Source: Phytohabitans maris
Lineage (GTDB): Bacteria; Actinomycetota; Actinomycetes; Mycobacteriales; Micromonosporaceae
NCBI RefSeq assembly: GCF_031085175.1
Contig: NZ_JAVHUY010000038.1
Coordinates: 1 to 64,000, forward strand
Length of the DNA: 64,000 bases
Direction: 5' to 3'
Part shown: in pieces, positions 1,780 to 35,410 of the stretch
Numbering within the stretch: the stretch's first letter is position 1
Layout: every line of letters starts with the position of its first letter
Notes under the pieces: model-generated
Told to the model about the DNA's origin: nothing
The model's input: only the letters and a program-made list of their open reading frames with translations
The model's database searches: none
Position numbers and translations under genes: made by a program

Positions 1780-2056
1780 CTACAAGGGCACCTGCGTACC
1801 ACGATCTACCCGAAGCCAGCCGACGCCGACGCCGATCAAGGGCCGCCACCCGCCCCGGTGCCGCCTGCTTCCTTGCGGGGACCCGGCCAAGCGAAATCAT
1901 CCGATGTGGACAAGCCTGACCCGGACTCCGAAAGGTCTCCAGATCTCAAGCTTTCCGGTCGGAGAGGGCGCCGGGTCGGGTTGTGAAGCGCGGAGGGTGA
2001 GGCCGCGGGAGCGACGGTCCTGACCACGGCGGACATCGCGGCAGCTCAGATCCTTC
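1780..2056. repeat. Family A palindromic/MITE-like element, copy 1, interrupted by the IS
   Basis: Holds the right arm GTACCACGATCT (1796-1807) of the internal hairpin, the conserved GATCAAGGG / GCCGACGCCGACGCC neighbour (reverse complement of the CTTGATCGGCGTC block in the other copies) and the right terminal repeat at 1996-2043, which reads GGTGAGGCCGCGGGAGCGAC onwards. The other half would lie left of the IS. No gene is supported here; a short leftward ORF at 1836-2036 is a product of the repeat itself. The element ends 13 bp from the mutM stop. Confidence 0.75.
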
Positions 2057-12428: not shown

Positions 12429-12486
12429 CGGTGATCGAAGCTCCGTTCAAGTCGTTAGAACGACTTCAGGGGAGCTTTGATCACCG
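12429..12486. repeat. Family B hairpin repeat, copy 1 (imperfect)
   Basis: Arms 12431-12454 and 12461-12484 (GTGATCGAAGCTCC to GGAGCTTTGATCAC) with loop TTAGAA; a few mismatches in the inner arm. It lies between the start of the DAK gene and the rpmB terminator. Same family as 34871-34924, 46771-46824 and 59705-59758. Confidence 0.85.
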
Positions 12487-14776: not shown

Positions 14777-14876
14777 AGACGGGGCACTCGACCGCGCCCG
14801 CCCGCGGGGGCGGCGGTCCGGACCCGACGCCGCCAAGCACCCGTAAGCCCTGGACGATCCGTTCCAAGGGATGGGC

Positions 14877-15699
14877 TACCGCGATCTCTGTCGTGGTCCG
14901 GCCCACCTCAGTTTGACCAGGGTCAGGCGGCTGTGCACTACGGGCCCCGAGCCGGTCGCCGTTCCCATGATCGACACCGATCACCGGCCGCGCACGAACC
15001 TCGACCCCGAGTTCACGGCTCGACAGCGGACCGTCCCAGCAGATCGTGGTACCAATCCGCCCGCCCGAGGGCACCTACGTACCACGATCTCGACCGCCCC
15101 ATCCGTGGTGACCGCGAGACGGCCTGACGCTCCTGAGCGTGCCCAGCTCACGACCCTGACCGAATCAGCGTGAATGGCACTGGGCCCGGACCGTTGCTCC
15201 CCCGGCCTCACCCCGCGCTCGACAACCCCGCCGGCCCCGGCTCTCGGCCCCCGGGCAGATCCGCGCCGGCAGCCTCCGGGGCCTACGACCCCCTTGGAGA
15301 CCGGGCATCCCCGCGAAGGGAGCGGCCCGCCATCCATCAGATGACGGGCAAAGTCCCCAACCAACATCGCCCATCGCCGCGCCGTCCGGCCACGGATGAC
15401 CGCCACCGGACCGAGCAAGCTCCTGGAATAGATCGTCTGGATCGACGAGAGCGGGCGGCCGCACTGAGTGACAGCATCGGCCCCTTGATCGGCGTCAGCG
15501 TCGGGTGGCTCCGGGTAGATCGTGGTATTTGGCTGCCCCTGGAGGGACAGCTAAATACCACGATCTGGACCCCTGGGTTGATCTCAGAGCGTCGATCATG
15601 GGACGGGTGAGTCGGCCTGTCACCCGCCGCTGCGGGTTTTGTGACGCGGAGGGTGAGGCCGCGGGAGCAACGGTCTGGACCACCGCGGACGTCGCGGTA
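14877..15699. repeat. Family A palindromic/MITE-like element, copy 2 (long or compound)
   Basis: The left terminus TACCGCGAT (14877 on) matches the first 27 bases of the family terminal repeat at 22 positions; the right terminus is 15652-15699. A second, partial left-type terminus lies near 15188-15213. Two internal hairpins: AGATCGTGGTAC at 15041-15052 with 15079-15090 (perfect, 12 bp), and 15517-15530 with 15553-15566 (perfect, 14 bp) enclosing a smaller stem, GCTGCCCCT/AGGGACAGC. The size, 823 bp, suggests two nested or adjacent copies. It ends 26 bp from the ddl stop. Confidence 0.7.
15517..15566. repeat. 50-nt near-perfect hairpin inside family A copy 2
   Basis: AGATCGTGGTATTT pairs perfectly with AAATACCACGATCT, and the inner 20 nt pair again, so almost the whole 50-mer folds into one stem. 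The same outer arm occurs at 15041-15090, 35036-35084 and, as a half, 1796-1807. Confidence 0.9.
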
Positions 15700-15725
15700 G
15701 CTCAAGTCTTTCTGAAATGGGTCCG

Positions 15726-16826
15726 CTAGTGCAGGCCGGTGCCGCGGTTTTGCGCGGTGCGGATGAGGCGGCTCACCAGTTTGGGGTATTCGAGGCCGGT
15801 CTCCGCCCACATGCGGGGAAACATCGAGGTCGGCGTGAAGCCGGGCATCGTGTTGATCTCGTTGAGGTAGACGTCGAGCTCGGGGGTGACGAAGAAGTCG
15901 ACCCGGGCCAGCCCGGCGCAGTCGATCGCGGTGAAGGTGCGGCAGGCGTACTCCTGGACCTGCCGGGTCACCTCCGGCGGGAGGCCGGCCGGGATGTCGT
16001 ACTCGCAGGAGTCGTCGAGGTACTTCGCCTCGAAGTCGTAGAACTCGTGGCCGCCGACGACCCGCACCTCCGCCAGCAGCGACGCCTCGGGCGCGCCGCC
16101 GGTCTCCGCCTCCAGCACGCCGCACTCGATCTCGCGGCCGACGATCGCCGCCTCGACCAGCACCTTGGGGTCGATCTGGCGGGCCTCGGTCACCGCCGCG
16201 TCGAGCTCGGACCAGTCGTTGACCTTGGAGATCCCGTACGACGAGCCGGCGCGGGAGGGCTTGACGAAGACGGGCAGCCCCAGCCGCTCCTTGTCCGCCT
16301 CGGAGAGGGAGACGCCGGCGCGGAGCACCGCGTACGGCCCGACGGGGATGCCCTCGGCCGCCGCGAGCTTCTTGGTGAACTCCTTGTCCATGGCGGCGGC
16401 GGAGGCGAAGACGTTCGCCCCGACGTACGGGACGCCGGCCATCTCCAGCATGCCCTGGATCGTGCCGTCCTCGCCGTACGCCCCGTGCAGTGCCGGAAAC
16501 ACGACATCGACGCCGGCGAAGGCCTGGGGGCCAGCGGCCGCATCGAGCACCATGAGACCATTGGCCGTGGGATCGGCGGGGAGCACCACCGCCTTGCCGA
16601 CCTCGGGCGTGATCTCCGGCAGCCGGCGGTCGGCGATGGCCAGCTGTGCCGGGTCGCCGGTGGTGAGCACCCACTGGCCGGCACGGGTGATCCCTACCGG
16701 GATGACCTCGAACTCGTCCGGGTCGAGGGCGGCCATGATGCTGCCCGCGCTCACGCACGAGATGGCGTGCTCGGTGCTGCGTCCGCCGAAGACGAGGGCT
16801 ACGCGGGTCTTCCGTGGGCTGCTCAC
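15726..16826 (-). CDS. ddl: D-alanine--D-alanine ligase
   Basis: ATP-grasp enzyme that makes the D-Ala-D-Ala dipeptide of peptidoglycan. 366 aa. N-terminal [17 protein letters not shown] carries the essential Glu; [32 protein letters not shown] and the C-terminal [15 protein letters not shown] supply the ATP, Mg and D-Ala contacts. The Tyr in SSYG suggests the D-Ala-D-Ala rather than D-Ala-D-Lac form (family rule). Transcribed leftward from a short gap shared with the phosphatase gene. Confidence 0.96.
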
Positions 16827-34128: not shown

Positions 34129-34839
34129 ATGTTTCGGCTTGTGGGACACAGTATGAGCGGTGTCGGCGTTCTCGACAAGGCGGTGGTCATCCTGGCCGCC
34201 TGTGTCGACGGCGCCAGCTTGGCCGAACTCGTCGAGCGCACCAAGCTGCCCCGGGCCACCGCGCACCGGCTGGCACAGGCCCTGGAAATCCACCGGATGC
34301 TGGTGCGCGACACCCAAGGCCGGTGGCGCCCGGGGCCACGCCTGGGCGAGCTCGCCAACGCCGCACCCGACGTCCTGCTGACCGCCGCCGAGCCCCTGCT
34401 GTCCGCGCTGCGCGACGCGACCGGCGAGAGCGCGCAGCTCTACCTGCGCCGCGCCGACGAGCGCATCTGCGTGGGCGCGGCCGAGCGCGCCAGCGGCCTG
34501 CGCGACACCGTCCCGGTGGGCGCGGTGCTGCCGATGACCGCCGGCTCCGCCGCACAGGTGCTGCTCGCCTGGGAGCCGCCCGAGGCCGTGATGCCGTTGC
34601 TGCCGCGGTGCAAGTTCACCGGCCGCACGCTGGCCGAGGTCCGCCGGCGCGGCTGGGCGCAGAGCGTGGCCGAGCGCGAGGCCGGCGTGGCAAGCGTTTC
34701 CGCCCCGATCCGCGACCGCACCGGCCGGGTCATCGCCGCCATCAGCGTCTCCGGCCCGATCGAGCGCCTCGGCCGCCGCCCCGGCGACCGCCACGCGATG
34801 GCGGTGGTCCGCGCCGGCCAACGCCTCAGCGGCCTTTGA
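34129..34839 (+). CDS. IclR-family regulator (NdgR/LeuR-like)
   Basis: 236 aa. Winged HTH in the first 70 or so residues (SLAELVERTKLPRATAHRLAQALE), IclR effector domain after (LYLRRADERICVG, VLPMTAGSAAQVLL, ASVSAPIRDRTGRVIAAIS). Divergent next to leuCD, the standard place of NdgR, which activates or represses leucine genes in response to amino acids. Start ambiguous: ATG 34129 lies 10 bp after TAAATT and could be leaderless; ATG 34153 (MSGVGVLDKA) matches known homologues better. Confidence 0.9.
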   Translation: MFRLVGHSMSGVGVLDKAVVILAACVDGASLAELVERTKLPRATAHRLAQALEIHRMLVRDTQGRWRPGPRLGELANAAPDVLLTAAEPLLSALRDATGESAQLYLRRADERICVGAAERASGLRDTVPVGAVLPMTAGSAAQVLLAWEPPEAVMPLLPRCKFTGRTLAEVRRRGWAQSVAEREAGVASVSAPIRDRTGRVIAAISVSGPIERLGRRPGDRHAMAVVRAGQRLSGL

Positions 34840-34870
34840 CCGCCCCAATCCCGCCGCCCACCACGTTCCC

Positions 34871-34924
34871 GTGATCAAAGCTCCCTTCATGTCGTTCTAG
34901 CGACATGGGGGGAGCTTCGATCAC
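34871..34924. repeat. Family B hairpin repeat, copy 2
   Basis: Arms 34871-34894 and 34901-34924 (GTGATCAAAGCTCCC to GGGAGCTTCGATCAC), loop TTCTAG, two mismatches. It stands 31 bp after the IclR stop and 6 bp before the family A element. Confidence 0.9.
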
Positions 34925-34930
34925 AGGCAG

Positions 34931-35261
34931 TACCGCGACATCCGGGGTGGCACGGACCGATGCTCCCGCAGCCGCACCCCACCGCGCGCAAGGCCTTCCC
35001 TCCTTGATCGGCGTCGAGATCGGCCAGCAGCCAGCAGATCGTGGTCAGTTACTGCCCCTCCAGGGGCACCCAAGTACCACGATCACTTGCGTGATCCGAG
35101 CCGCCGCGCCGATCAAGGGAAAGCGCAGCGGGACCGGCGGCAGGCCTTTCGTAGCAAGGGCTTTCGCCGGGAGGCCGGGCCCGCGCGAGGGGTGAGCGTG
35201 ACCGGCGGCGGACGGTGAGGCTGCGGGAGCGACGGTCTGGACCACGGCGGACATCGCGGTA
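34931..35261. repeat. Family A palindromic/MITE-like element, copy 3 (best preserved)
   Basis: 331 bp bounded by 48 bp inverted repeats, left 34931-34978 and right 35214-35261, identical at 38 of 48 positions, each starting TACCGCGA. The interior has the CTTGATCGGCGTCGAGATCGG block and the hairpin AGATCGTGGT (35036-35045) / ACCACGATC (35076-35084) with an inner TGCCCCT/AGGGGCA stem. No transposase. No clear target duplication. Consistent with a non-autonomous, MITE-like element. Confidence 0.75.
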
Positions 35262-35299
35262 GCTCAATGTCTGGTGAATGGCTCCTGCAACCGGAACCA

Positions 35300-35332
35300 G
35301 ACAGGGCCCGCACCTGAGGTGCGGGCCCTGTC
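35300..35332. terminator. tRNA-Glu terminator
   Basis: Perfect 15 bp stem GACAGGGCCCGCACC (35300-35314) with 35318-35332, loop TGA, just past the 3' end of the tRNA. Confidence 0.85.
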
Positions 35333-35337
35333 ATCTG

Positions 35338-35410
35338 TAGCCCCGACCGGATTCGAACCGGCGCTACCGCCTTGAGAGGGCGGCGTCCTAGGCCGCTAGA
35401 CGACGGGGCC
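35338..35410 (-). tRNA. tRNA-Glu (anticodon CTC)
   Basis: 73 nt cloverleaf: acceptor GGCCCCG pairs with CGGGGCT (first pair G-U), anticodon loop CTCTCAA with CTC at the anticodon, T-loop GGTTCGAATCC. CCA is not encoded. Lies 90 nt downstream of tRNA-Gln in the same orientation. Confidence 0.95.

Follow-up and report, generated by a model that had tools for sequence, protein, structure and literature searches.

The 64,000-nt stretch analysed here (the window) carries, at 34931–35261, a repeat that lies between an IclR-type gene (+ strand, ending at 34839) and a tRNA-Glu gene (35337–35410, − strand). The preliminary description of this DNA reported 48-nt arms at 34931–34978 and 35214–35261, and these are indeed inverse matches, with agreement at 38 of 48 positions (79% complementary); the similarity extends 5 nt further outward, to 34926–34978 and 35214–35266. 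The extended arms are an inverted pair of one end motif, hereafter the END core. The left core, on the − strand with its outward side to the left, agrees with the END consensus at 43 of 53 positions, its outer tip being degenerate or replaced, and the right core, on the + strand, fits the degenerate consensus at 53 of 53. Between them, a nested and perfect 12-bp inverted pair (35002–35013 and 35107–35118) surrounds a central hairpin with arms at 35037–35059 and 35062–35084 (74%). This hairpin, at 35036–35085, belongs to a 50-nt family of the form AGATCGTGGTA...TACCACGATCT and has 20 of its 22 fixed positions. Folded as RNA, 34926–35266 forms a long single hairpin of −199.9 kcal/mol on the + strand and −204.6 kcal/mol on the − strand, with z values of −7.9 and −8.4, respectively, equalled by none of 100 shuffles. 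Neither outer tip is recognisable and CTAG is absent; the letters ..TGGTGAATGGCTCCTGC at 35267–35290 (+ strand) may represent a degenerate right tip, by comparison with the form ..GGAATGGATCGT followed by CTAG. Since the tips are gone, this copy (copy 1) was assigned to its family through the END cores. An unrelated 54-bp hairpin at 34871–34924 abuts its left side; this second hairpin family, GTGATC(A/G)AAGCTCC...GGAGCTT(T/C)GATCAC with a variable inner stem, occurs at two intergenic sites, 34871–34924 and 12431–12484.

The ends and the internal hairpin were said to recur twice more in the window, which proved to be the case at 14872–15704 (copy 2) and only partly at 1797–2048 (copy 3), where one end and one hairpin arm are present. 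Copy 2 consists of a left END core at 14872–14905 (− strand; the outer 34 nt are recognisable, 30/34), two 50-nt hairpins at 15041–15090 and 15517–15566 (22/22 each), and a right END core at 15652–15704 (+ strand, 53/53), followed by an outer tip at 15705–15729 (+ strand) whose terminal CTAG contains the TAG stop codon of ddl on the reverse strand. An element belonging to copy 2, at 14850–15440, is bounded by inverted tips at 14854–14870 and 15420–15436 that resemble those of IS982 insertion sequences at 18 of 21 positions each, the 21 including CTAG; in ten base-pair shuffles the best score per strand was 13–15 of 21. These tips are flanked on both sides by CTGG (14850–14853 and 15437–15440), a candidate target duplication. 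At the ddl site of the congener G005 there is no element, and the convergent genes, as we read them, share a single CTAG. Copy 3 comprises the right arm of a 50-nt hairpin at 1797–1807, the left arm not being recognised, and an END core at 1996–2048 (+ strand, 51/53). The proximity to stop codons, given earlier as 13–26 bp, holds for the mutM and ddl copies, where the core is separated by 8 nt from the mutM stop (gene end 2057) and by 21 nt from that of ddl (15726); it does not hold for 34931–35261, with its IclR-type and tRNA-Glu neighbours.

The family is far larger than the minimum of three copies first claimed. A 39-mer of the END core, allowing up to three mismatches, matched the window's own genome at 136 places (84 forward, 52 reverse), and the reversed control pattern matched at none, which excludes chance. 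With a 24-mer and two mismatches, we counted 376 matches in G002, 375 in P. suffuscus (G003) and 424 in P. flavus (G004), where the reversed 24-mer gave 0–1, as well as 34 in G005 and 6 in G001, both of which are also Phytohabitans. Outside the genus, the same count gave 38, 8 and 5 matches in G023, G029 and G022, respectively, and 0 in four further genomes. An initial survey of 61 genomes gave matches at E ≤ 0.001 in 15, of which some were very weak. The sequences flanking the copies have nothing in common (55 ends aligned). In all likelihood, the repeat at 34931–35261 is a decayed member of a family of small, gene-less mobile elements dispersed through the genomes of several Phytohabitans species.

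The architecture of the element is best preserved in P. suffuscus. A scan of this genome with CTAGACGATCYRTTCC, a pattern that includes CTAG, allowing one mismatch, found 41 sites, 24 of which form 12 inverted pairs. Within one pair, spanning 1,030 bp, there is a transposase gene; the sites of the remaining eleven pairs lie 147–385 bp from each other, leaving no room for such a gene, and delimit non-coding elements of 139–377 bp. Seven of these are 364–377 bp long, possess both END cores and are 87–95% identical to one another. The remaining four are shorter; L271, L272 and L274 were without one or both cores at the threshold used, and L273 and L274 are fused palindromic versions of 147–175 bp. 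Compared in 30-nt blocks, the seven long elements are 93–94% identical at the tips, 79–95% in blocks touching the cores and 85–92% in the interior, and the linkers between are the most variable part (68–79%, the worst block 68%). Their tips, near ACGATCTRTTCC, lie outside the inverted arms, and the END core is subterminal, 45–59 nt from the tips. The 48-bp arms are therefore not the terminal repeats for which they had been taken.

CTAG stands at 13 of 14 flanks of the seven long elements and at 20 of 22 flanks of all eleven, as expected of a target-site duplication; these counts are not independent evidence, because the scan pattern itself contained CTAG. Around 250 END matches, CTAG occurred at 5–20 times the genome rate within 0–90 nt outward, at 0.4 times at 90–120 nt and at 2.0 times at 120–180 nt, and 88 of the 250 had a CTAG within 110 nt outward. 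On the inward side, CTAG was also enriched 3–5-fold, near the general intergenic level, because intergenic DNA is richer in CTAG; relative to intergenic DNA, the outward enrichment was about six-fold at best. Some paired copies end in tips such as CTAG followed by ACGATCTGTTCC. Among the 49 listed inverted END pairs of less than 3 kb, five had CTAG within 110 nt on both sides.

Comparison of orthologous sites indicated that the copies are independent insertions rather than parts of segmental duplications, which would have been at odds with the mobile-element reading. Syntenic regions, first of 80 kb and then of 280 kb, from four congeners were aligned and END cores mapped onto the alignments; the sites counted reappear from one species to the next, and not all are independent. 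The copy-1 site measures approximately 460 bp in the window versus 206 bp in G004, 245 bp in G005, 598 bp in G003 and 1,238 bp in G002, and none of these four congeners had an END core there at the threshold used; in G003 the site holds the hairpin and a weak END trace (37/53). Conversely, a 326-bp END-hairpin-END unit of P. flavus lies at a different gene pair, at which the window has none. The P. suffuscus insertion L269 is absent from all three congeners whose alignment crosses the junction (G005 and G001 were left out), in which the position of the P. suffuscus CTAG is taken by ATAG, ATAG and TTAA. No alignment for the eleven P. suffuscus elements includes an unoccupied site that retains one whole CTAG. 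Within the 280-kb region, several gene pairs of G005 nearly abut (0–30 nt), with hundreds of bases of repeats between them in G002–G004.

The 1,030-bp P. suffuscus element (L263) encodes a 305-aa protein that matches the IS982 model NF033520 at 167.6 bits (cut-off 130) and Pfam DDE_Tnp_1. The 20 tips of ten of the short P. suffuscus elements agree with the IS982 tips at 14–17 of 18 positions, so that the short elements have terminal inverted repeats in common with an autonomous element of their host. When IS982 tips were sought without requiring CTAG in the 15 strongest of 30 fetched IS982 loci, six loci had both tips (ACGATCNATTCCAAGGG). Four of the six are flanked by CTAG on both sides (one in G003, one in G004 and two in G002), one has CTAA and CTAG, and the last, L308, which is the own-genome copy with a matching tip, has CTAG on neither side. 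Six other IS982 copies of the window's genome lie at contig ends and their tip does not match; the two that were read (L284 and L289) carry another tip, ACGAGTAGTTCC / ACGAGTAGTTCCGATGTC, beside CTAG. These six same-scoring copies of a second lineage probably break the assembly. IS982 scored over the cut-off in G000, G002, G003 and G004, and not in G001 and G005, which have 6 and 34 cores; the presence of IS982 thus follows the abundance of the core (4/4 core-rich versus 0/2 core-poor genomes), which is suggestive only. An autonomous element with the same 48-bp ends had been proposed as the thing to look for. The IS982 elements supply the matching tips and the CTAG flanks, but the overlap with the short elements is confined to approximately the outer 16–18 bp. 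The tip match and the common flanking tetranucleotide indicate that an IS982-family transposase is likely to move the element.

A partner was also sought beside the END cores themselves. The 1,103 ORFs that lie inward of the 250 END matches, up to 3.5 kb away, were clustered, and only IS4-type transposases were recognised among the listed clusters of at least three sites. IS4 was rejected as the partner, since in P. flavus the IS4 element is a passenger, lodged within an END core and flanked by 10-bp repeats, GGTCCGGACC. This insertion sequence (Nterm_IS4) lies at 91.6–93.6 kb of the syntenic region on G004:C1, and GGTCCGGACC is a palindrome of the core. One 2.2-kb END pair (L073) encloses a gene that by eye resembles a DUF222/HNH protein; in a 1.5-kb pair (L148) no gene-like ORF was seen.

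The position of the cores relative to genes was scored with gene positions from a home-made codon-model caller rather than from annotation. The 69 END cores in 1.22 Mb, some of which are one site repeated across species, fall 46 in convergent and 18 in tandem regions, 0 in the 155 divergent regions and 5 within called genes; the 3' end of the outer gene faces the core in 58 of the 64 scored cases, at a median of 40 nt. CTAG is itself unevenly distributed. It occurs at 0.345 per kb versus the 2.6 expected from base composition, a 7.6-fold under-representation, and the 386 occurrences away from END cores comprise 88 in 1,024 kb of coding DNA, 93 that are TAG stops and 205 in 173 kb of intergenic DNA. 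At the element flanks, CTAG was the stop codon of a gene in 5 of 22 cases, no more than the background of 93 in 386, indicating that stop-codon sites are used without preference beyond their availability. We propose that the elements accumulate at gene ends because their target is seldom found outside stop codons and intergenic DNA. Target choice accounts for much of this location, to which the purging of harmful insertions may add.

Taken together, the unlike flanks, the presence or absence at orthologous sites, the boundary CTAG, and an element that encodes a transposase and has both matching tips and the same tetranucleotide at its flanks bear out, for the family, the original suggestion of a miniature inverted-repeat transposable element (MITE). 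In our judgement, 34931–35261 is probably an old, tip-degraded member of a genus-wide Phytohabitans MITE family that uses an IS982 transposase in trans and CTAG as its target. The full element would be a non-coding foldback of up to approximately 380 bp, consisting of an IS982-like tip (approximately ACGATCTRTTCCAAGGG), a variable linker, an END core of approximately 38–53 bp and the hairpin interior, followed by the same parts in mirror order. The IS982-family transposase of an autonomous element in the same cell would bind the MITE tips and either cut out or copy the MITE, which would insert at CTAG with duplication of the four bases; such duplication is the presumed source of the paired CTAGs. 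As CTAG is scarce except in TAG stops preceded by C and in intergenic DNA, insertions would gather behind genes, where the duplicated CTAG would leave the stop codon intact, and insertions upstream of genes would be rare or purged. With age, copies would lose their tips and take up other repeats, such as the 50-nt hairpin and the IS4 element, and would persist as END cores, alone or in pairs, for the most part where two genes converge, as in the case of 34931–35261.

The END core also occurs outside Phytohabitans, and this bears on its origin. In the genera of G022, G023 and G029 (L319–L348), the tips differ by eye from genus to genus. Of 51 places, 30 were examined: the 3' end of a gene lies on the outer side at 23, and the core is 15–32 nt behind the stop codon at 15, the stop by eye not being only TAG. 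The core in these genera is either an older transposon end or an element with its own role. The latter can be extended to a scheme in which the END core is an old Micromonosporaceae gene-end element that functions behind stop codons, and was captured in Phytohabitans by IS982 tips to give a transposon that seeks out CTAG stop codons, restores them and places portable hairpin modules between convergent genes. We regard this scheme as unlikely, at roughly one chance in five.

A further explanation, which we hold to be unlikely, is that the END core functions in 3' UTRs, as a terminator or a stabiliser of mRNA ends, and is maintained by selection, with mobile tips spreading it only secondarily. 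It would account for the gene 3' ends facing the cores, inside the genus and in the other genera alike, for the long hairpins and for the retention of the core across subfamilies while the flanks vary, the matches having been chosen by the core. The gene-end bias inside the genus is, however, already predicted by CTAG targeting, and an element under selection sits poorly with the core-less orthologous copy-1 sites and with 6 copies in G001 versus 424 in G004. The RNA searches also speak against it. In an Rfam scan of five loci, the only hits over the gathering score were two tRNAs outside the element, and a scan for intrinsic terminators (a G+C stem plus a T run), which covered copy 1 alone, found 0 in 34840–35340. 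The earlier alternative of a mobile structured RNA or terminator is weakened by the same two results, while the position at 3' ends and the long hairpin leave room for such activity as a side effect. As for the peptide MSAVVQTVAPAASPSA, which had been ascribed to repetition of the DNA alone, that explanation holds. A coding role was rejected, as, across 55 ends, the column of its ATG, read on the opposite strand, has A in some copies and G in others, so that many copies are without the start codon and the peptide is not conserved as a protein.

It is quite improbable that the two inverted ENDs are independent of each other, each being a single element placed at the gene 3' end of one member of a convergent pair, rather than the two termini of one element. 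The orientation of the cores towards gene ends would fit, as would the 35 of 69 cores without an inverted partner within 1.6 kb and the 51 places in other genera, none of which had an inverted END pair closer than 1.6 kb at the threshold used. For the P. suffuscus subfamily, this explanation is contradicted by the seven similar 364–377 bp units, which lie at separate loci and each carry the two cores and the two tips, and the fused palindromic versions also argue against it.

The 50-nt hairpin forms a repeat in its own right, of nearly constant length, and it is found also in the absence of neighbouring END cores (L029). Among the loci analysed there were 81 distinct 50-mers, and the spacing of the arms was 39 in 103 of 125 cases and 38 in 18. 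Covariation was moderate: pairs 12/39 and 13/38 are clearly above independence, and the pairs at the foot of the stem hardly vary; we therefore make no RNA claim for the hairpin. Its near-fixed length, conserved base and variable inner stem are REP-like, yet a family of REP-type repeats spread by a RAYT transposase (IS200/IS605 class) in place of a DDE-transposase MITE is very hard to reconcile with full elements that have terminal inverted repeats, flanking CTAG and IS982 tips. Movement of the IS200/IS605 type produces neither terminal inverted repeats nor flanking CTAG. The REP and BIME repeats of enterobacteria are palindromic, intergenic and near 3' ends, and the Phytohabitans element resembles them in all three respects; unlike them, it has terminal inverted repeats and flanking tetranucleotide repeats, which point to a DDE transposase.

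MITEs derived from IS982 are already known, and the targeting rule proposed here for the Phytohabitans family is unusual and testable. IS982 insertion sequences have tips, flanking CTAG and host genomes in common with the family, and the element of the window differs from them in being without a transposase gene. RUP of Streptococcus pneumoniae depends on a transposase of IS630 type, not IS982. According to the sections consulted, MITECca01 of Cardinium is a transposase-less, IS982-derived MITE of approximately 240 bp, whose inverted ends, like those described here, resemble an IS982-family element of the same genome (PMC9769881). As portrayed there, it belongs to another phylum and to an endosymbiont, and retains a short conserved piece of the parent IS beside the repeat (PMC9769881), whereas the Phytohabitans element has only approximately the outer 16–18 bp in common with the IS and a long foldback interior. 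RUP, BOX and SPRITE of S. pneumoniae are characterized, in the portion of a review drawn on here, as chromosomal MITEs that are bunched and show nested insertions, SPRITE being terminator-like, and the same review covers MITEs that may act as terminators (PMC10969869); we liken our element to them by description, not by sequence. Neither “IS982” nor “Streptomyces” appears in the main text of that review. The literature searched, outside which most subscription papers fell, held no account of the Phytohabitans element.

Our analysis links a very high-copy intergenic repeat of an actinobacterial genus with large genomes to its likely autonomous partner. It also offers a simple and testable reason why small elements lie behind genes, namely a target that is avoided except in stop codons and intergenic DNA, whose duplication would keep the stop. 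Such insertions may explain part of the differences in convergent intergenic length among these species. A second CTAG-ended repeat, with a tip of approximately CTAG followed by AGACCTTCCGGGGTCAGGGT, adjoins three of the eleven P. suffuscus elements with the CTAG in common, on the left of L233 (163868) and L243 (6038856) and on the right of L237 (2660212).
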